IMG/VR virus record: IMGVR_UViG_3300006790_001396
Coordinates: 1 to 23,431 of that record
Direction: 5' to 3' (one strand)
Length of the DNA stretch: 23,431 nt
From: a virus
Below the pieces are notes generated by a model that did no database searches, was not told where the DNA came from, and worked only from the letters and a program-made list of their open reading frames with translations. Positions within the stretch are counted from its first letter, which is position 1, and each line of letters begins with the position of its first letter. The translations under genes were made by a program, and so were the position numbers. Shown in pieces: positions 1 through 23,427 of the stretch.

Positions 1-721
1 ACACTAGCACGAATCTAGGGTACGGGCTGTCCTGCTGCTCACTATCATAGATAGAGAACGCGAGGGTCCACTTAGGAGCAGGTCCGGCGTACTGGAGGCC
101 AGGCTGGTTCTTATCGGCTAGGTATCCTCCCTCCACAGCGAATCTCATTTTCCCTGCGATAGGCATAGCCATGACACCTAAGCGGTGCGTATGGCCCTGG
201 TGGACACTACAGCCGAGTTCGTGGGCCACTTTCAGAGCATGGGCCGCAGGGAACTTAGAGCTGCCCTTGAACTCATCTCCGTGCAGAATCCGTACTTTCT
301 GTCCCTGTCCACACGGCACCATCACCTTCTTACGTCCCGCATTCTCCACCCAGTCTATCCCTAGATCGTCTAGTCCTATTGTCTTAGGGTACGTGAGCCC
401 CGACATACGTAATGCGGGCGCCCTCCCTTGGATGTAGGTGTTCCAGCGTCTCTCGTGATTTCCGGAGATGTAGGTAATCTTAGCCTTGGGCGCGGCGTCG
501 CGGATGGCCTGGAGCAGCTTCCGGACTCCCCTTAACTCCTTGTCCAGCAGGTCTTCCCAGCGCGGGTCCTTGCGGTGGGTCGTCAGCGCGTGGAGGTCGG
601 CAATGTCGCCAGCCAGGACGATGTGCCCTGGCTTCTCTCGGCGGATGGTGTCCAGTAGCTTCTTCTCTCCCTTGCGGGACTGGAAGGGCGCGTGGATGTC
701 GTGGGCTACGATTGTCTTCAA
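1..721 (-). CDS. Calcineurin-like metallophosphoesterase, C-terminus off the left edge
   Basis: This is a binuclear-metal phosphoesterase of the calcineurin-like fold, partial because it runs past base 1 (at least 240 codons are present). Reading from the TTG at 721, the family motifs appear in order: D8-x-H10 (VAHDIHAPF), G38-D39 (LAGDIAD), G87-N88-H89-E90, H147 in LHGD, and G176-H177-T178-H179. These are all the canonical metal and phosphate ligands. The frame has no ATG after its upstream TAA. TTG at 721 is chosen because it overlaps the TGA of the 32-aa peptide gene (TTGA) and gives the usual family N-terminus, MKTIVAHDIHAPF. Phage relatives are thought to act on nucleic acid ends or nucleotides; the substrate here cannot be told. 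It is driven from promoter P4 through coupling to the small gene. The call is firm; the start is probable. Confidence 0.9.
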   Translation of the reverse strand, partial: MKTIVAHDIHAPFQSRKGEKKLLDTIRREKPGHIVLAGDIADLHALTTHRKDPRWEDLLDKELRGVRKLLQAIRDAAPKAKITYISGNHERRWNTYIQGRAPALRMSGLTYPKTIGLDDLGIDWVENAGRKKVMVPCGQGQKVRILHGDEFKGSSKFPAAHALKVAHELGCSVHQGHTHRLGVMAMPIAGKMRFAVEGGYLADKNQPGLQYAGPAPKWTLAFSIYDSEQQDSPYPRFVLV

Positions 722-816
722 GACACGGCCCGAAGGAGGCTCAGAATCAGGAGGCTTACCCCTCCCCAGAACTTTTTCGGATGCGTCTTAGCGAGTAGAG
801 TGATGCGATTAAGCAT
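718..816 (-). CDS. 32-aa single-pass membrane peptide, leaderless
   Basis: No family is recognised. The peptide has a basic N-terminal half (NRITLLAKTHPKKF) followed by a hydrophobic segment at about residues 17-30 (FWGGVSLLILSLL), so it looks like a one-pass membrane peptide. The case for a real gene comes from context. Its ATG begins 7 bases after the last base of a near-perfect -10 box, exactly where transcription should start, and its TGA overlaps the TTG start of the phosphoesterase by four bases. It may be a small functional protein, such as a holin-type or host-interfering peptide. It may instead be a leader whose translation delivers ribosomes to the downstream gene. It could be a chance ORF, but both ends landing on functional signals makes that less likely. 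Confidence 0.5.
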   Translation of the reverse strand: MLNRITLLAKTHPKKFWGGVSLLILSLLRAVS

Positions 817-822
817 AGGAGC

Positions 823-851
823 ATTATAGTGCTCGGCCTAGTCCCCGTCAA
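823..851 (-). promoter_or_regulatory. Promoter P4 (TTGACG-N17-TATAAT)
   Basis: On the minus strand the -35 box TTGACG (846-851) is separated by 17 bases from a perfect -10 TATAAT (823-828). The -10 sits inside the near-palindrome GAGCACTATAATGCTC. The -35 overlaps the last codons of the upstream 133-aa gene (Met-Val-Asp-Gly-Asp-stop). The predicted start point, seven bases past the -10, is base 816, the A of the ATG of the 32-aa gene. The GCAC directly before the -10 is shared with three other promoters in this window. Confidence 0.85.
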
Positions 852-12300: not shown

Positions 12301-14423
12301 CCGAAAGCGTTCCAGCCGTTGGTCTTGGACACGGGCGTCTTGTACCGGAACGCGCACTGTAGCGTCCAGTTGGAGGTGAGGTCGAGGGAGAGGGCCGTCT
12401 GGTTGCTCTGCCAGAACTGGTGCGCGGAAGACGAGTTCGCCTCCGAGCGGGCGCCTCGCATCCAGATCGTCTCCTTGAAGTTGTCCTCGTCCCAGTCGGG
12501 CAGACGGAAGTGCTGCTCGAAGACGTGGTTCTCGCCCACGGTGAGCGGCCCCGAGTTAGAGGCCTCGAAGCGGTCGGCCGCAGCGCTGAGGCGCCCTGTC
12601 TGGCCGTAAGTCTCGCCCAGCTCCGAGTCCGAGTCGCCGCCCGTGACGCTGGTCGAGCCGAGGATAACCTTCTGGCCTCCGGTCGCGTCTACGGGGTCTA
12701 GGCGCATGACCGGGCCCTTTGTCCCGTTGTAGGAGACAGCCTGATACCCGTACGCTACGCAGCCGTCCAGGACTCCTGGCCCGATGGCCTTGGTGCTGAC
12801 GACAGCGCTGGGAGCAGGGAGCCCCAGAGTTCTGGCGCGCGACTTCTCCGAGTCCAGGACATGGACCTTCGACGAGCTGGTGAGGAAGGTGAGCGGGCCA
12901 ATCTTTGAGCTGACAGGCCCATCCTCGATGCGCGCCGCAAGCGAGGTCTGGTAGCCGGAGGGGCCCGAGCCGGACACAGCGACTCCACCAGCGATGCTGC
13001 GCCAGGGCTCGTCCGCGATAGGGCCGGGGGCATACACGGGCTCACCGTCCAGGGTCGCGTTCGTGATCGTGAACCCCGGAATGTTGTTGAGCGAGGCGTC
13101 GGCGCTGGAGCCTGACGCGAAATCGTAGTAGAAGGAGGCCAGGCCCTTCTCGACCTGGCGCCGCGTCTCGAAGGGGTAGAGCGCGATAGAGTCGAGGGTG
13201 CCGGTGAAGGCCCCAGTGCTGGGGGCCTCGCTCGCGCCGATGTAGCAGTCAGGGACTCGGCTGAAGTCCAGGTAGGGCGGGAACATCTCCGTGCCCGAGT
13301 TCGAGACAGCCTCGTCGCCGCCCGGTGCGCTAATCTCCAGGAAGCGCGAGTCTCCGTTCCGGCCTGCGGCAATGACGAAGGTCTGGTTCCCGAGCAGGTT
13401 CGTGGTCGAGGAGCTGAGGGTGACGCCGTTCGTGGTGAAGTCTACGGAGCCGTCGCTCTGGATCTGCACCGTGCAGAAGTCCCCGTAGTCGATGAGGGTC
13501 TGGGCGCCTGAGACATCGGTGCCACGGTCGCCCTCGATGACCACCGACCAGGCATCCTCGGCCGTAGAGCTGAGGGCAGTCTGGAAGTAGCGGTCCAGGA
13601 CGGACGTGTGCCGGACGAAGAAGGCGCCCGTGTGCCCGCCGAAGTGCATGTGGTCAGAGTCCTGGGCTGGCCGTCCGGGGTTGGAGCGGAGGGTCAGGAC
13701 GCCCGAGTCGGCCATCTGCACCGAGGGCGACATGGCGGAACCGTCGAGGCGCCAGGACGTATCGAGGGCTTCGCGGATGCCCAGAACTGTGGAGGCGTCC
13801 GAGACGTAGGACTCGGAGTAGCCCACGTTGGCGATGACGGGGTACTTCCCCTCGGCTTTCGTGATAGACGTGTCAGGGTCGCCCAGGATGTAGAGGGTCT
13901 TCGCGCTGACGAAGGTGCCCAGAGTGCTGGTGTCCACGGTAGTCGTCGTGGTCCCGTCGTAGAGCGTGAGGGTCGTGCCCGTGAGCCGGAGCACATAGTC
14001 GGCCTTGGACTCGGGCACTACGGTCGTGGCGGACTCGAGCTTGGAGGCGCTGCCCTCGGCACTGAGGACAATCTGGTAGCCGTTCGCCGCGCTGCGTTTG
14101 AGATAGACCTTGTAGTAGTCCGTGTCGCCCGAGTGGAGCTTCAGGATAGGGTAGTGGCCCTCGGCCTTGGCAATGTCGCCATGGTCTAGGCTGAAGCCCA
14201 CCGTGAAGCCGGAGCCCGTCGCCACGGTGCTCTCGGCGCTGAGATAGCCCTGGCCGGGCATTATAATGCCAAGCGCCGAGCCGTACTCTGCCTGGCGCTC
14301 GCTTCCGGTACGTCGTCGCACCTCTCCCAGAGGCATGTCCGGATTGACCTCGCGCCTGTTCAGGAGCGGGGACTTTCCGGTGCGGTCTAGGGGCAGGCCG
14401 TCGAAGCGGAGGCGATCAGGCAA
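9342..14423 (-). CDS. 1693-aa tail protein: repeated LamG-like domains fused to nozzle-type beta-propeller
   Basis: A giant tail protein of beta-rich sequence. LamG/concanavalin-like hallmarks recur: a first unit at about residues 58-215, a second at about 265-440 with the signature CYIGASEAPSTGAFTGTLDS, a probable further unit in 640-900, and another around 1080-1230 with WIHIGGHADG and NVSEFRMWDD. From about 1240 to 1490 the style changes to repeated blades such as FPWNGRLALLDDKSQIWPS, GQVLVCGRNWGVLVGG and YSGMAFTFNGKLWAVVDG. These resemble the propeller of podovirus tail nozzles (T7 gp12 type). Ig-like or linker beta segments follow. The start is TTG at 14423, inside the end of the 29-aa ORF, with no Shine-Dalgarno; no convincing alternative start is close. 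The likely role is the tail-tube tip plus receptor or glycan binding. Confidence 0.7.
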   Translation of the reverse strand: MPDRLRFDGLPLDRTGKSPLLNRREVNPDMPLGEVRRRTGSERQAEYGSALGIIMPGQGYLSAESTVATGSGFTVGFSLDHGDIAKAEGHYPILKLHSGDTDYYKVYLKRSAANGYQIVLSAEGSASKLESATTVVPESKADYVLRLTGTTLTLYDGTTTTTVDTSTLGTFVSAKTLYILGDPDTSITKAEGKYPVIANVGYSESYVSDASTVLGIREALDTSWRLDGSAMSPSVQMADSGVLTLRSNPGRPAQDSDHMHFGGHTGAFFVRHTSVLDRYFQTALSSTAEDAWSVVIEGDRGTDVSGAQTLIDYGDFCTVQIQSDGSVDFTTNGVTLSSSTTNLLGNQTFVIAAGRNGDSRFLEISAPGGDEAVSNSGTEMFPPYLDFSRVPDCYIGASEAPSTGAFTGTLDSIALYPFETRRQVEKGLASFYYDFASGSSADASLNNIPGFTITNATLDGEPVYAPGPIADEPWRSIAGGVAVSGSGPSGYQTSLAARIEDGPVSSKIGPLTFLTSSSKVHVLDSEKSRARTLGLPAPSAVVSTKAIGPGVLDGCVAYGYQAVSYNGTKGPVMRLDPVDATGGQKVILGSTSVTGGDSDSELGETYGQTGRLSAAADRFEASNSGPLTVGENHVFEQHFRLPDWDEDNFKETIWMRGARSEANSSSAHQFWQSNQTALSLDLTSNWTLQCAFRYKTPVSKTNGWNAFGIVGIQKASPTGGSNRAGTNADFAAFVSEGHNHPDASDYGSSANPRLVVCLSRQRLDGAYGGGIKNLSTNYYMLTFSNDGSGFWADGEDYNIQFTRRGAALQVQVHNRTTDTWLDMVGNGNTMTGYTTAHATYGPGNADTRANYDDTNYFQGWTPYSATRTLVWGSTGRPGIRVPLLTAAGDVDHTAIDTVLTTPAYDNSMSIVDGAPSTAVHWHYRAWQDALSFSTFRHNSEERFAAFAGESLESDIYADFAPIFEDETDSDDARYDAVLGLPWYARSDGTTGDTVENFTQDDNNLLAKQHPILVLDTDGTALDSAAIVLYYSALGDGTLTLRGGTEGSFNITERIWDAQSSDAKYVKTRDELANAGVIMPDLDSFNWVAFDVTVNAGAGSARNLTIENMAVNGSVIFDDGFGGTSMGIGSWPAGWIHIGGHADGSSTLDERVNVSEFRMWDDGKGPDLDDGTDFDYLTGRVSENEYTGGTTNLLHYYKFQPDDLVGSVLENYGSEGDASADGNAEIIDERAAQDSGADPAPVVVFPEAPHPDIVGWQLSRTTEVAPVDADVDEDVQTALEIARGLELRSLAFVPVGTSFHTDNTPSEALGLAIDETAGSVPENILSAFPWNGRLALLDDKSQIWPSVAGSAGWESYPENDRFRIPSEEGVGQATAAIEVQDRFGQGQVLVCGRNWGVLVGGSPDVPDVRSLGQIIGASNAQCIAAYSGMAFTFNGKLWAVVDGEQADFGLPVQDLLPDKDNCRLASSAALSSLFVIDTSTGDVLRYHFPTKTWSVEERAARDVGDLDDGAGAWVNFTRTWSKEASVYGDDVPDQTLTLTGTVSGDTITGVAASTIAAQTRCLVVDSAGTEAVVNTVGDITSGTTLTFGSGDLAGLTGSATVYLGVGQTGLLLDTGPLDVGAKVTSRHLEAEVLTGSAWESAHDAATTPGDRSSLSTWDDFAGRQGMTATGRFQRAAVRNRKPEAASVSILEIVL
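14257..14270. other. Intragenic perfect 14-bp palindrome of the promoter type
   Basis: GGCATTATAATGCC is perfectly self-complementary and is the ideal form of the near-palindrome that overlaps the -10 boxes of the four promoters. It lies early in the 1693-aa coding sequence (codons for Gly-Ile-Ile-Met-Pro). No -35 sequence is present 16-18 bases upstream on the minus strand, so it is probably not a promoter. It could be a pseudo-operator or chance. Confidence 0.4.
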
Positions 14424-16476: not shown

Positions 16477-17637
16477 CTAGAGAGTGATTCCCTCGAACTG
16501 ACCGAAGGAACGACGGCCGTGCTCGAGGCTCCAGCCACTCTTCATCTCGAGACGCTTGAACCAGTTGGTGCTGGTCGCGACCGGCCAGGAGCCGGGGTAC
16601 GTCTTGATGAAGCCCATCGAGGGGATGTCCTGGGCCGCGCCTCCGGTGAAGAGGCCCTGCATCACGACATCGAAGCGGAGGGAGTTGTAGTTCATGAACA
16701 CGATAGGATACTCGGCAGTAGCGCCCGCGCTGAAGTCCCAGCGTACATCCTTAGTGTCCAGCTTACGGTGACGGTGCACAGCGATGTCGCCCAGAGGGAC
16801 GGAACGCTGATACCCAGCACCCATATTAGCGGCGAGCGGGGTCGGGAGAGCCGCGTCATCGCGCAGGAGCTCGATGATCTGCTCGTAGACAGAATCACCA
16901 GTCCAGATGTGGGTCGGACGCTCACGACCACCGTAGTCGAGGTCGCGTGCGAAGGAGTCAAGCTCTGCGATCAGGGCGGAGCCGTTCGCGGTACCGGAAC
17001 CAACGCCCGGAGCCCACTTGGCCGCATCGTCAACCGAAAGACCTGCGAAAGTCTCGTCGGACTTGTCGATAGAGCCCGAGACGCCCGACTTTTCGGTGCC
17101 GGAGGTCAGGAGGCCCAGGAGCGACATGCCGTGGTAGTCGGTGCTGTCGTAGTCGGTGTCGCCAGCGAAACAGGCGTTAGCCTCGGGGTTGGCACCGTCG
17201 AAGGTGTCGTTACCGAGAAGGAAGCGCGATTCCAGGATATCGGCGGTTTCGATGCCGTTACCCTCGAACAGAGCCTTCATGTAGTTCTGCTGGTCGCCTT
17301 CCGGGATGGTTGGGACGTAGGGGACGTTCTGGGTCCAGACCGCCTTCGAGAAGCGGAGCTGGGCCAGGATTTCCTTGGTCGCGGTGGTCAGGGTCGCACC
17401 GGCACCGAAGTTGTCCATGTTGTGACCGACACGAGTGCCGCCACCGGACTGGTGCATGAAGTGCTCGACACGCTCTTCGGTGTCGCGGACCTGCATGATT
17501 CGACCTGCGCGAGACAGGGAATCGAGAAACTGGGTATCGCCATCGCTGAAGAGCTGGATCAGGTTGGCGGAAACGTCGTCAGACGCTACCGTAGCCAGGG
17601 TGTCGAGGCTACGGTTGTAACTGGTAGGGAGAGCCAT
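16477..17637 (-). CDS. Major capsid protein (386 aa)
   Basis: The gene lies directly after the scaffold and before the adaptor, has the usual coat-protein length, and lacks any enzymatic motif. The N-terminal region (residues 1-50) is helical, as in the arm of HK97-fold coats. The middle is beta and Gly/Asp-rich with an insertion-like loop at about 150-190 (NACFAGDTDYDSTDYHGM). The C-terminal part has GDIAVHRHRKLDTKDVRWD and a closing LEMKSGWSLEHGRRSFGQF segment. HK97 fold is inferred from context. The leader of 63 bases before the ATG has no normal Shine-Dalgarno next to the start, but an A-rich stretch (CCAAAAATAAGCCC), which may bind ribosomal protein S1. The message presumably comes from P3. 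The codons look more uniform and C-ending than in neighbours, as expected for a highly expressed gene. Confidence 0.85.
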   Translation of the reverse strand: MALPTSYNRSLDTLATVASDDVSANLIQLFSDGDTQFLDSLSRAGRIMQVRDTEERVEHFMHQSGGGTRVGHNMDNFGAGATLTTATKEILAQLRFSKAVWTQNVPYVPTIPEGDQQNYMKALFEGNGIETADILESRFLLGNDTFDGANPEANACFAGDTDYDSTDYHGMSLLGLLTSGTEKSGVSGSIDKSDETFAGLSVDDAAKWAPGVGSGTANGSALIAELDSFARDLDYGGRERPTHIWTGDSVYEQIIELLRDDAALPTPLAANMGAGYQRSVPLGDIAVHRHRKLDTKDVRWDFSAGATAEYPIVFMNYNSLRFDVVMQGLFTGGAAQDIPSMGFIKTYPGSWPVATSTNWFKRLEMKSGWSLEHGRRSFGQFEGITL

Positions 17638-17700: not shown

Positions 17701-18351
17701 CTAGTTCATAGGGGCGCCGCCTGCATCCTCGGCCTGCTTCAAGCGAGCCTCGAAGGAGGCGCTTGGCGTACGGCCGTAGGTTCTGGCGTCTTCCGCTTGC
17801 TTCGAGGCGGGCCCTTCCTGGAACTGCTGGACGGGCACGCTGTCCACACTATCGGCTTCGGCTTGTCGCTGTTCGCGGGAGACACCAGCGGCTCGGATGA
17901 GCATGGCAACACCTTCCTCAGTCAGGAGCGCTTTCTTGTCCACGAAGCCGAGAGAGGCCTCGACTTTCTGGTAAGCGTCCGTGCCTGGAACGATGCCCTC
18001 GGAAGCAAGGCGCTGATGGAACTGTGCGTTGGCGTCAGCCTCGGCCTTCCATGTTGCGCGTTCCTTCTCGAGTTCTTCCTTGAACTGCCCAGGGGTCATG
18101 TACTCGCCTTTCTGGGTCTTCTGACTCAGAGCAGCGCTTACCTGATCCTCGACAATGCGACGGATATCGGGGTCTAGATCGTTAAGAGAGCGTTTGGTCT
18201 TGTGCTCTTCGCGACCCGCTTCACGTACTGCGTCGGCTACCGAGGGTGTCGGCTCCGGCGCGGGAGTTTCCTGGGGCGCAGGCGTGGCACCGTCCTGCGG
18301 GGCGGGGTCGGCAGGCGTACCTGCTTCTTCCTGTGGCTTTGTTTCGTCCAT
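17701..18351 (-). CDS. Capsid scaffold protein (216 aa)
   Basis: This is an acidic, helix-rich protein without Cys or catalytic motifs, placed immediately before the major capsid gene, which is the classic position of the internal assembly scaffold. Residues 1-40 are disordered and Pro/Glu/Ala-rich (PADPAPQDGATPAPQE). Residues about 55-130 are coiled-coil-like (FKEELEKERATWKAEADANA), and the C-terminus (about 185-216) is basic and helical, as expected for coat binding. The start ATG at 18351 is preceded by AAGGAG at 18358-18363 with a 6-base spacer, the best ribosome binding site in the window. Promoter P3 lies upstream with a predicted leader of about 61 bases. Unlike P1, P2 and P4, this message is not leaderless. 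Confidence 0.82.
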   Translation of the reverse strand: MDETKPQEEAGTPADPAPQDGATPAPQETPAPEPTPSVADAVREAGREEHKTKRSLNDLDPDIRRIVEDQVSAALSQKTQKGEYMTPGQFKEELEKERATWKAEADANAQFHQRLASEGIVPGTDAYQKVEASLGFVDKKALLTEEGVAMLIRAAGVSREQRQAEADSVDSVPVQQFQEGPASKQAEDARTYGRTPSASFEARLKQAEDAGGAPMN

Positions 18352-18357
18352 GTCTGG

Positions 18358-18363
18358 CTCCTT
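18358..18363 (-). promoter_or_regulatory. Strong Shine-Dalgarno of the scaffold gene
   Basis: AAGGAG on the minus strand, six bases before the scaffold ATG. It stands out because almost all other starts in the module either overlap the previous stop codon or sit at the 5' end of a predicted leaderless transcript. Confidence 0.8.
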
Positions 18364-18418
18364 CAGTGAATGGGGCTACCCTGGGGCTCCCCGGTACTTT
18401 TCCGGCTACCTGCTGTGC

Positions 18419-18447
18419 ATTATAGTGCCTCCTGGTGCGGAGGTCAA
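18419..18447 (-). promoter_or_regulatory. Promoter P3 (TTGACC-N17-TATAAT)
   Basis: Minus strand -35 TTGACC (18442-18447), 17-base spacer, -10 TATAAT (18419-18424). GGCAC precedes the -10 and GCAC follows it. The predicted start is near 18412, giving a leader of about 61 bases before the scaffold ATG. It would drive scaffold, capsid and tail genes. A related palindrome lies just upstream at 18454-18471. Confidence 0.85.
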
Positions 18448-18453
18448 GGCCGT

Positions 18454-18471
18454 AGGGCACTATATTTCCCT
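18454..18471. promoter_or_regulatory. Palindromic upstream operator-like site O3
   Basis: AGGGCACTATATTTCCCT on the plus strand is an interrupted palindrome with AGGG/CCCT arms. It lies between the stop of the zinc-ribbon gene and the -35 of P3, six bases from the -35. Its half GGGCACTATA matches the -10 region of the promoters. Its centre (18462.5) is 40 bp from the centre of the -10 palindrome. A sister copy sits in the same place before P2. Confidence 0.6.
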
Positions 18472-21250: not shown

Positions 21251-21457
21251 CTACAGGGCCTGCTTCAGGTAGCGGACGGCGTTACGGAGGGCAGGGATAG
21301 TCCTGCCGATAGGCGCTTGGTACTTGCCTTCAGCGTTGGCGAGCTTGAGCCGCTCTAGGATGTCGCAAAGGACAGCGTAGTCCTCGGCGAGCTGGGAGGT
21401 CTGGGGGGCCGTCGGCTCGGGCGCCTCGGAGGTCAGGGGGGAGTCTTCCGGTAGCAT
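21251..21457 (-). CDS. 68-aa helical protein, leaderless start, function unknown
   Basis: The first 22 residues are Pro/Glu/Ser-rich and probably disordered. The rest is helical (QLAEDYAVLCDILERLKLAN) and ends with a basic helix (IPALRNAVRYLKQAL). It sits between TerL and portal, where some phages encode a small head or packaging accessory. The only good start in its 5' part is the ATG at 21457, nine bases after the -10 of P2. Its message should therefore begin about three bases before the AUG and carry no ribosome binding site. No family is recognised. The helical, basic C-terminus would allow DNA or protein binding, but nothing more can be said. Confidence 0.7.
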   Translation of the reverse strand: MLPEDSPLTSEAPEPTAPQTSQLAEDYAVLCDILERLKLANAEGKYQAPIGRTIPALRNAVRYLKQAL

Positions 21458-21466
21458 GGTGAGTGC

Positions 21467-21494
21467 ATTATAGTGCCATCCGCCCCGATGTCAA
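21467..21494 (-). promoter_or_regulatory. Promoter P2 (TTGACA-N16-TATAAT)
   Basis: Both hexamers are perfect consensus on the minus strand: TTGACA (21489-21494) and TATAAT (21467-21472), with a 16-base spacer that ends in GGCAC. Expected start near 21460, three bases before the ATG of the 68-aa gene. It drives the 68-aa protein, portal, 136-aa and zinc-ribbon genes. It lies in the 70-base gap after TerL. Confidence 0.9.
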
Positions 21495-21502
21495 AGGATT
21501 AG

Positions 21503-21520
21503 AGGGAAATATAATGCCCT
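21503..21520. promoter_or_regulatory. Palindromic upstream operator-like site O2
   Basis: AGGGAAATATAATGCCCT on the plus strand, the near-exact inverse of the site before P3. It lies eight bases upstream of the -35 of P2, seven bases after the TerL stop. Its centre (21511.5) is 41 bp from the centre of the -10 palindrome. The plus strand contains a TATAAT, but no -35 accompanies it, so a divergent promoter is unlikely. Confidence 0.6.
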
Positions 21521-21527
21521 ACCGAAA

Positions 21528-23126
21528 CTACTCGTCGAAGAAGTCGAAGTCAGCGTCCGGCAGGTTGGCCGAGGGACCTGTGGCCCAGTCCTCGTTCGCC
21601 TTCGCCCCATTCTCGAACGGGAGCTGGCCGCGCCTCGACAGGTGGGAGCCCAGGAGCGCCAGAGCTGCGGGCAGGTCGTCGGAGGAGGACATAGGGAACT
21701 CGATGAGGCGCTTGATGAGCTTGTCGCGGCCCTCGAAGCGCGCGGGGAACTGGATGATGCCCTTCCGGAGCGCTGTCGGGACGCCCTTGAGGCGCGTGGC
21801 CAGGTTCTTCTGCGGGATGCGCTGTGTCCGGACGCGAACGCCCTCGAGGCGACCGCGCTCGATGAGCCAGGGCTTGATGGTGCCGCTGAAGACCACGTTC
21901 TCGATCCAGATGGAGCGCAGGTTCGGGAAGCGGTCCTTCTCGATGAGGTGCTCGATGTGCTGGATGAGCGAGTCCACGTTGCCACGGATTTCGGCGGCAT
22001 AGTGCGGAATGAATACGTTATGGTCTGGTGGCAGCGTAGCGATGCCCAGGACTGCGGCGGGCACGACGCGGACGACGAGGACTCCGTTCAGGTCGGCCGA
22101 GTAGCCCTCGGTCACGGCCACGGGGTCCACGAGCATAATGTCGTAGCCCTCGGGCAGATTTTCGCCACTGAGCTGGCCTGCCGTTGCCTGCACGAACATG
22201 TCGTCCTCGAACAGGGCATCCTCGCCCGCGACGGGGCGGCACTCGTACTGCATGGCGAAGAACGACTTCGGGTTGTTCGCCTGGATGGCGTAGATCTCCT
22301 CGGCCGTCAGGAAGGAGGAGCAGAGCGGGTAGGAGCCGCCAGGTCCTGGGCCCTTTCCGTCCTTCTCGCCCGTGGCCTCGTTCGCGCCGTCCCAGACCCC
22401 GTAGCGGTACTGCGACCACTCGGGCGCCTCGGACAGGTACGCGGAAACGTCCGAGAAGGCCCAGGGCGTGCCGATATGCTTCACCGGGCTGTTCTTCTCG
22501 TACATGATGGGTACGAGCTGGTGGATGAAGTCGATGACCTGCTGGCGGCGCATCTCGGTGTTCGAGTTCTGCTCGTTCGCCGGGTCGTCGATGGAGGCGT
22601 GCGTGGGGTGGTTGCCCGCCAGGTTCATGCCGGGGGAGGCCGTCATGAAGCAGGGCTCTCGGCCCTGGCCCGCACGTCCGATAATATTGAACTTGTCGCA
22701 CGGCCCCGAGACCTGGCCCTGGTGGAAGCGGGGGAAGGCCCACGGGAATAAGTCACGCATCGGTACGTAATATCCCTCGAACAGCTCGATGTCGCCACCC
22801 ATCCGGTCGCGCATCTCGCCCAGGAGCTTCTTGCCCAGGTCTAGGGTAGACGAGCCCACCAGGATGCGCGAGTCCGGGCGCGTAATCTTGGTGTGGATGT
22901 TACAGATTAGCTCGACCGTGGACTTGGCGTGGCCACGGGAGCAGACGGTCGAGGTCTTCGGCTGCGAGTTCCGGTGCTCGAGCATCTCCTCGTGGAAGGC
23001 GCCGAACTGCTTGCGTCCGTCAGGGGTGCCCTTGTAGCCGAGGGCTCGGCCCAGTTCTAGGGGATCGGCGAAGAGGTCCTTGATGCGCTGCGCGAAGCGA
23101 TCGGGGTCGAGGGCCCCTACCCCCAC
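21528..23126 (-). CDS. terL: Terminase large subunit (532 aa)
   Basis: The DNA packaging motor: an ATPase that pumps DNA into the procapsid and a nuclease that cuts the concatemer. Numbering from the GTG at 23126, the adenine/Walker A region is C62-SRGHAKST-70. Walker B is at 176-182 (HASIDDP, D180-D181, where many relatives have D-E), and a GTPW motif lies at 219-222. The C-terminal RNase H-like nuclease shows D334 (MLVDPVAV), E409 (IWIENV) and D483-D484 (SSDDLPAALALLG). Length is typical. GTG at 23126 is preferred over the upstream ATG at 23180. It is preceded by GGAGGACGAAGA, a good Shine-Dalgarno, it overlaps the previous gene by only 10 bases, and the extra 18 residues are Arg/Gly-rich noise from the other frame. 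Confidence 0.95.
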   Translation of the reverse strand: MGVGALDPDRFAQRIKDLFADPLELGRALGYKGTPDGRKQFGAFHEEMLEHRNSQPKTSTVCSRGHAKSTVELICNIHTKITRPDSRILVGSSTLDLGKKLLGEMRDRMGGDIELFEGYYVPMRDLFPWAFPRFHQGQVSGPCDKFNIIGRAGQGREPCFMTASPGMNLAGNHPTHASIDDPANEQNSNTEMRRQQVIDFIHQLVPIMYEKNSPVKHIGTPWAFSDVSAYLSEAPEWSQYRYGVWDGANEATGEKDGKGPGPGGSYPLCSSFLTAEEIYAIQANNPKSFFAMQYECRPVAGEDALFEDDMFVQATAGQLSGENLPEGYDIMLVDPVAVTEGYSADLNGVLVVRVVPAAVLGIATLPPDHNVFIPHYAAEIRGNVDSLIQHIEHLIEKDRFPNLRSIWIENVVFSGTIKPWLIERGRLEGVRVRTQRIPQKNLATRLKGVPTALRKGIIQFPARFEGRDKLIKRLIEFPMSSSDDLPAALALLGSHLSRRGQLPFENGAKANEDWATGPSANLPDADFDFFDE

Positions 23127-23389
23127 TCTTCGTCCTCCTCCTCGGCAGTGATGGCGTCGGAGAAGACCTGGCCAATCCACTCGGGGATGTGCTGGGAGAG
23201 GCCCATGAGCGGAAAGTAGGAGCCGCTCATTCTCCAGAATAAAGAGTTTTCGGTCTCTTTTTCGTTTTTGTAGAGGACGAGGATAACGTCGTCGTGGCGC
23301 GCGATCAGCTCGTCTACTAGGGCATCGGTCGTGACGTAGGTGAGCGGATGCGGAATATGGTCGGAAGGCTTCTTGCTGGATGGCGCCAT
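23117..23389 (-). CDS. 90-aa protein upstream of TerL, possible small terminase
   Basis: No motif is recognised. The N-terminus is basic and polar (APSSKKPSDHIPHP), and a mixed alpha/beta core follows (ALVDELIARHDDVILVLYKN, GSYFPLMGLSQHIPEWIGQV). It ends in an acidic tail (AEEEDEEWG). The acidic codons of that tail double as the purine-rich Shine-Dalgarno of terL. Immediately upstream of terL is the usual place for the small terminase. However, most small terminases are longer and carry a helix-turn-helix, which is not evident here, so the call is weak. The ATG at 23389 lies nine bases after the -10 of P1 and is the only start in the first half of the frame, so its message is predicted to be leaderless. 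Confidence 0.65.
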   Translation of the reverse strand: MAPSSKKPSDHIPHPLTYVTTDALVDELIARHDDVILVLYKNEKETENSLFWRMSGSYFPLMGLSQHIPEWIGQVFSDAITAEEEDEEWG

Positions 23390-23398
23390 GGAGAGTGT

Positions 23399-23427
23399 AG
23401 TATAGTGCCCGCCAGTGTTCGGGTCAA
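23399..23427 (-). promoter_or_regulatory. Promoter P1 (TTGACC-N17-TATACT)
   Basis: Minus strand -35 TTGACC (23422-23427), 17-base spacer ending GGGCAC, and -10 TATACT (23399-23404). Predicted start near 23392, three bases before the ATG at 23389. It drives the 90-aa gene and terL. The window ends just upstream, so an upstream palindrome like those at P2 and P3 cannot be assessed. Confidence 0.82.

Follow-up and report, generated by a model that had tools for sequence, protein, structure and literature searches.

Predicted leaderless operon heads and a leadered scaffold-like gene in a metagenomic virus and its relatives

Promoters and genes of the window

The window, i.e. the whole stretch of DNA that was analysed, is a 23.4-kb virus record with a G+C content of 62% and with its genes on the minus strand. 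No tRNA genes were found. The roles of the portal, scaffold and capsid genes were assigned by position and family. The features at promoters P1, P2 and P4 are as follows.

23399-23427, minus strand: promoter P1, TTGACC-17-TATACT, followed by ACACTCTCC and the ATG at 23389
23117-23389, minus strand: 90-aa gene, predicted to be leaderless, 9 nt from the -10 box of P1; its ATG is the sole possible start in the frame
21528-23126, minus strand: large terminase subunit (phrog_38, E 9.7e-31)
21467-21494, minus strand: promoter P2, TTGACA-16-TATAAT (12/12 consensus), followed by GCACTCACC and the ATG at 21457
21251-21457, minus strand: 68-aa gene, predicted to be leaderless, 9 nt from the -10 box of P2
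19270-21246, minus strand: portal-like gene with a GTG start, assigned by position and family
823-851, minus strand: promoter P4, TTGACG-17-TATAAT, followed by GCTCCT and the ATG at 816
718-816, minus strand: 32-aa mini-ORF, predicted to be leaderless, 6 nt from the -10 box of P4; resembles one membrane helix
1-721, minus strand: calcineurin-like phosphoesterase gene (PF12850, E 4.7e-8) with a TTG start, truncated by the window edge

Sigma-70-like sites with a consensus score of 10/12 or more occurred four times on the coding strand, compared with 0.17 times in dinucleotide shuffles, while those scoring 11/12 or more occurred three times (0.015 in shuffles). The distance from the last base of the -10 box to the ATG was 9 nt at P1, 9 nt at P2 and 6 nt at P4; these values had been given in an earlier note on this DNA and were exact on recheck. 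An ATG opening at least 20 aa is found at an offset of 6 to 9 from a random position in 3.7% of cases. No Shine-Dalgarno (SD) sequence was present before the three ATGs, and a check of frames and SD sites agreed with the earlier claim that the P1, P2 and P4 frames contain no other in-frame ATG, GTG or TTG with an SD. Lack of an SD together with lack of a better in-frame start, as used by Zheng 2011 (PMC3160421) to recognise leaderless genes, was thus found at all three sites. The first T of the TANNNT motif lay 12 bp (P4) or 15 bp (P1 and P2) before the start, and 12 to 18 bp in relatives. This spacing agrees with the Zheng criterion and with reporter tests in Deinococcus (PMC12340547). Actinobacteria and Deinococcus-Thermus commonly have leaderless genes preceded by TANNNT at about 12 bp (PMC3160421, PMC12340547); the promoters described here resemble them and have a full -35 box in addition.

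The frame of the 90-aa gene is closed by a stop 45 nt upstream, and its next in-frame ATG, GTG or TTG does not come before codon 54. The terminase gene starts with a GTG within the 90-aa gene and has a strong SD (GAGGAGGA, -11.7 kcal/mol), the strongest of all. A Pfam search of the portal-like gene gave no match. The gap before P2 measures about 70 nt, and P2 is placed at its extreme end.

Spacing and first cistrons in related lineages

Relatives were obtained by terminase, portal and promoter searches, and the contigs compared are metagenomic. Five lineages were compared: the window, G001 (IMGVR_UViG_3300032257_000025; terminase 71% identical), L070 (3300028844_006179; portal 37-38% identical), G002 (3300034375_009288; portal 39-41% identical) and L136 (3300006789_004492; portal 40% and terminase 53% identical), the last with near copies L137 and L138. 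Portal identity to that of the window was 37-66% across related lineages. The terminase and portal had no protein match in phage records, and none in contigs of cellular genomes. In far relatives (portal 33-36%) the terminase mostly abutted the portal directly, without a clear promoter before the terminase. The distances from the -10 box to the start codon were as follows.

Window, non-scaffold promoters: 9, 9, 6 nt
G001, non-scaffold promoters: 9, 6, 6, 6 nt
L070, non-scaffold promoter: 12 nt
G002, non-scaffold promoters: 10, 7, 6, 9 nt
L136, non-scaffold promoters: 8, 7 nt
Scaffold promoters, five lineages: 67, 60, 68, 62, 58 nt

All 14 non-scaffold promoters lay 6-12 nt from a start codon, compared with 58-68 nt for all five scaffold promoters (Fisher p 8.6e-5, for sequences that are not independent). 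At a random site, an ATG or GTG that begins an ORF of 20 aa or more is found at 6-12 nt in about 11-14% of cases; as the 14 sites share ancestry, the product of the per-site values is not claimed as a probability. The frame was closed 12-69 nt upstream, without another start, at 10 of the 14 sites, and the G001 P2 frame has an in-frame ATG upstream (-30). Promoter sequences, distances and closed frames, and their conservation in five lineages, are direct observations on the DNA. A multiple-of-three spacing, suggested by the 6, 9 and 12 nt of the first three phages, was abandoned when G002 and L136 gave 10, 7 and 8 nt.

The close spacing was retained despite changes of the first cistron. P1 is kept in G001 (9 nt to a GTG), G002 (10 nt to an ATG) and L136 (terminase GTG at 8 nt), and it is followed by a small gene or a mini-ORF, or by the terminase in the case of L136. 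The 90-aa gene of the window is homologous to an 81-aa gene of G001. Downstream of P2, a 68-77 aa gene precedes the portal in the window, G001 and L070, while the portal itself comes first in G002 and L136, 7 nt from the promoter in both. The 68-aa gene is homologous to a 75-aa gene of G001, the start of which is 6 nt from its own -10 box. A RuvC-like gene starts at 6 nt in G002; G001 has a 21-aa ORF first, whose stop overlaps the RuvC-like ATG. The portal start in G002 was fixed by alignment of the N-terminus, and the homology of the L136 terminase begins before the next in-frame start. Upstream of G001 P1 the genes have the opposite direction and no further promoter was detected, making read-through unlikely there.

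The phages retrieved by scans with the promoter pattern were for the most part unrelated and had ordinary leaders, so the pattern alone does not force short distances. In an unrelated phage with a G+C content of 40% (L118, L130), TTGACA-17-TATACT is followed at 8 nt by the ATG of a 127-aa gene (L130:1973-2012, plus strand), just upstream of a terminase-like ORF; this is perhaps another leaderless terminase operon.

The ATG at P4 was rejected as the start of an ordinary gene: its frame ends after 32 codons, and the phosphoesterase begins at the TTG at 721, which the TGA of the mini-ORF overlaps as TTGA. The order at P4 of G001 is TATAAT, 6 nt, ATG, a 33-aa ORF, GTGA and the phosphoesterase. The phosphoesterases of both phages aligned from residue 1 with 71% identity over 240 aa, and none of 5000 shuffles scored as well as the alignment of the two mini-proteins. 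The predicted P4 mini-protein is thus conserved at the protein level in G001, one of the relatives. The earlier note had expected leaderless mRNAs for three operons. A leaderless or near-leaderless reading of P1, P2 and P4 was upheld by the spacing kept in relatives, but the P4 ATG is not the start of the phosphoesterase.

Stop/start overlaps were present at five first ORFs of the set (TTGA, ATGA, GTGA, ATGA and GTGA). In mycobacteria, a coupled small ORF is marked by its leaderless start and by the RTGA overlap at its end (Shell 2015, PMC4633059). ORFs of 5-50 aa in a leaderless position, with their TGA in the next RTG, were found at P1 (ATGA), P4 (GTGA) and P5 (ATGA) of G001; TTGA at P4 of the window is the TTG variant of RTGA. 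The two systems share a small leaderless ORF with a TGA overlapping the next RTG and a linkage that is retained even where the peptide sequence may differ. They differ in that host genes are concerned in mycobacteria and phage genes, by prediction, here, where one overlap uses TTG. Three predicted leaderless mini-ORFs of 32-34 aa have the look of a single membrane span (L005:9670-9774, plus strand; a 33-aa ORF of L058 downstream of 9912, minus strand; window 718-816, minus strand). Such mini-ORFs at the heads of operons are easily overlooked by gene callers.

The scaffold leader and palindromes at the promoters

Promoter P3 is the only leadered promoter of the window. Its features are given together with the palindromes.

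18419-18447, minus strand: promoter P3, TTGACC-17-TATAAT, 67 nt to the ATG at 18351
18352-18412, minus strand: scaffold leader, 61 nt, with the SD AAGGAG (GAAGGAGC)
18373-18392, minus strand: conserved hairpin of the leader, GGGG-A-GCC-CCAG-GGU-AG-CCC
17701-18351, minus strand: scaffold-like gene, 216 aa, assigned by position
16477-17637, minus strand: presumed major capsid gene, 386 aa, without an SD, assigned by position only
821-832, 18417-18428 and 21465-21476: palindrome GCAYTATARTGC over -10 boxes
21504-21519: near-palindrome GGGAAATATAATGCCC, centred 41 bp upstream of the centre of the P2 -10 palindrome
18455-18470: near-palindrome GGGCACTATATTTCCC, upstream of P3

Promoter, distance and SD were as the earlier note had described them for P3, with a leader of about 61 nt and AAGGAG. 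Scaffold leaders measured 52-62 nt in the five lineages; since the scaffold-like proteins of all five align from M1, these leaders are real if P3 is used. A hairpin is common to the leaders of the window (18352-18412, minus strand), G001 (L005:15331-15384) and L136 (L136:11878-11931) in the form GGG-A-GCx(N4)xGU-AG-CCC. Two of its pairs are kept through changes on both sides, but some pairs are disrupted in one of the sequences, and the support from covariation is accordingly modest. Only the L136 leader folded better than shuffles. An outer pairing of GGUAGCC with GGAGCC over part of the SD region appeared in the consensus and in the folds of the window and G001 and was absent from the minimum-energy fold of L136. 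Within 1.36 Mb of fetched loci the hairpin pattern matched only these leaders and one site in an unrelated contig, and Rfam gave no match for the scaffold leader or the contigs. P3 is distinguished by a leader of conserved length, with a conserved hairpin in three lineages, and this hairpin is a possible translational operator. In the scaffold leaders of L070 (L070:790-850, minus strand) and G002 (L114:9608-9670, minus strand) a direct repeat of GGCACC, in two copies at a spacing of about 26-27 nt, was noticed by eye in place of the GGUAGCC motif.

The earlier note had reserved leadered, SD-led initiation for the most abundant virion proteins. As stated, this idea fails: the presumed capsid gene lacks an SD (-0.7 kcal/mol in the window, none in G001), and the strongest SD, at -11.7 kcal/mol, belongs to the terminase. 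The predicted structure of the presumed capsid protein had a pLDDT of 30. Several internal genes likewise have no SD, and leader and SD occur together only at the scaffold-like gene. The two proposed initiation modes, leaderless and SD-led, were retained, but at least three would be needed when SD-less or coupled internal starts are added.

In the window, G001, L070 and G002, almost every promoter has its -10 box covered by the palindrome GCAYTATARTGC or a near variant of it. In the window, 10 matches with at most two mismatches were found versus 1.1 expected, and all five sites of G002 were at promoters. At P2, P3 and P3 of G001 a second copy is found 40-41 bp further upstream, a distance of roughly four helical turns. 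The presence of the palindrome at most -10 boxes of the four lineages points to a regulator in common, and a phage regulator is plausible as the reader of the site. It is not required for short distances, as L136 is without the palindrome and yet has distances of 7-8 nt. A further perfect copy was seen at 14258-14269, inside a 1693-aa ORF and without a clear promoter. In G001 (L005:8640-8700) a GCACTATAATGC site adjoins a GTTAACACTGTTAAC palindrome between opposed gene blocks and may be a regulated promoter.

Initiation at the operon heads

P1, P2 and P4 are best read as giving very short leaders or none, since the spacing is above chance and kept in relatives, the frame is closed at 10 of the 14 sites, and in relatives the neighbouring codon begins the terminase or the portal itself. 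From the sequences we infer promoter use, exact start points, leaderless translation, coupling and a role of the hairpin, which would combine as follows. Transcription from the sigma-70-type promoters P1, P2 and P4 would start 0-6 nt before the first codon, assuming a start about seven bases past the -10 box. Ribosomes, probably as 70S with initiator tRNA as on other leaderless mRNAs, would begin at the 5'-terminal AUG without an SD. The small first cistron would then pass them to the next gene by an RTGA-type overlap (TTGA at P4 of the window), by an SD-bearing overlapping start, as from the 90-aa gene into the terminase, or through close spacing, as between the 68-aa gene and the portal. A leader is retained at the scaffold-like gene, and it may regulate that gene through the hairpin of three lineages, with its outer pairing that covers part of the SD region. 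Distances of 9 nt at P1 and P2 and 12 nt in L070 would, as a counterpoint, give leaders of 3-6 nt; in some species leaderless translation declines as the start codon lies further from the 5' end (PMC9031893), and a gap in leader lengths in Lactococcus would include 5-6 nt (PMC10986495). The in-frame ATG upstream at G001 P2 and the far relatives, most of which have no such promoter before the terminase, are further counterpoints. We give this reading, with leaderless or nearly leaderless heads at P1, P2 and P4, small-cistron hand-off and a leadered scaffold with a possibly regulatory hairpin, a probability of about 0.78.

The excess of palindromes over the -10 boxes, the second copies upstream and the confinement of the G002 sites to promoters would also be expected if the TATAAT palindromes were mainly operators, the closeness to the ATG then serving repression, with short-leadered mRNAs and translation from other transcripts. 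We consider this unlikely, as most palindrome sites have a -35 box at 16-17 bp, the scaffold promoters share the palindrome but have a long leader, and L136 keeps its spacing without it. The -35 boxes at 16-17 bp were also the reason to set aside promoters of a T7-like polymerase (CACTATA core); a search of G001 for PF00940 (phage single-subunit RNA polymerase) gave no match, and neither did the control search.

No intrinsic terminator was found close upstream of P2-P4, so read-through RNAs may exist there, and many internal genes are without an SD. The late genes could accordingly be expressed mainly on long polycistronic RNAs from P1 or further upstream, with P2 and P4 as minor promoters and the 68-aa and 32-aa ORFs reached by internal SD-less starts or coupling. 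That P2 matches the consensus perfectly (12/12), and that a promoter is retained just before a changing first cistron (68-77 aa gene or portal) in five lineages, renders this account rather improbable. Short intergenic gaps in a compact genome would necessarily bring promoters near to starts, but chance placement of this kind is very improbable: the scaffold promoter shows that there is space for leaders, P2 stands at the extreme end of its gap, and 14 of 14 sites fall within a range expected for about 11-14% of random sites. A more far-reaching proposal, which we regard as speculative and doubtful, is that the phage sorts its operons by promoter placement, leaderless for terminase, portal and others and leadered with a hairpin operator for scaffold and capsid, so that control of the two kinds of initiation, by host or phage, would set the ratio of packaging to shell proteins.

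Leaderless phage mRNAs are established for lambda cI and for PY54 cI and cro (PMC4488713), and a transcriptome paper describes phage transcripts as often leaderless (PMC5312081). As in lambda and PY54, the promoter abuts the AUG; lysogeny-switch repressor genes are concerned there, in contrast to terminase, portal and other operons here. In the Thermus phage phiYS40 the middle and late mRNAs are mostly leaderless, and host IF2/IF3 are reportedly shifted (PMC3594737). That phage resembles the present one in the leaderless transcripts predicted here; the IF2/IF3 shift belongs to phiYS40, whereas the present case is known from sequence alone.

The novelty is the comparative pattern at the operon level, not a new mechanism. 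In the literature surveyed, leaderless phage mRNAs were those of repressor genes or of a Thermus phage. In the present set such placement recurs across five lineages, at homologous terminase and portal operons, with the scaffold as one consistent exception. The question why some structural operons of a virus should be under leaderless initiation can thus be approached through a clean comparison, and the scaffold leader offers a testable RNA element.
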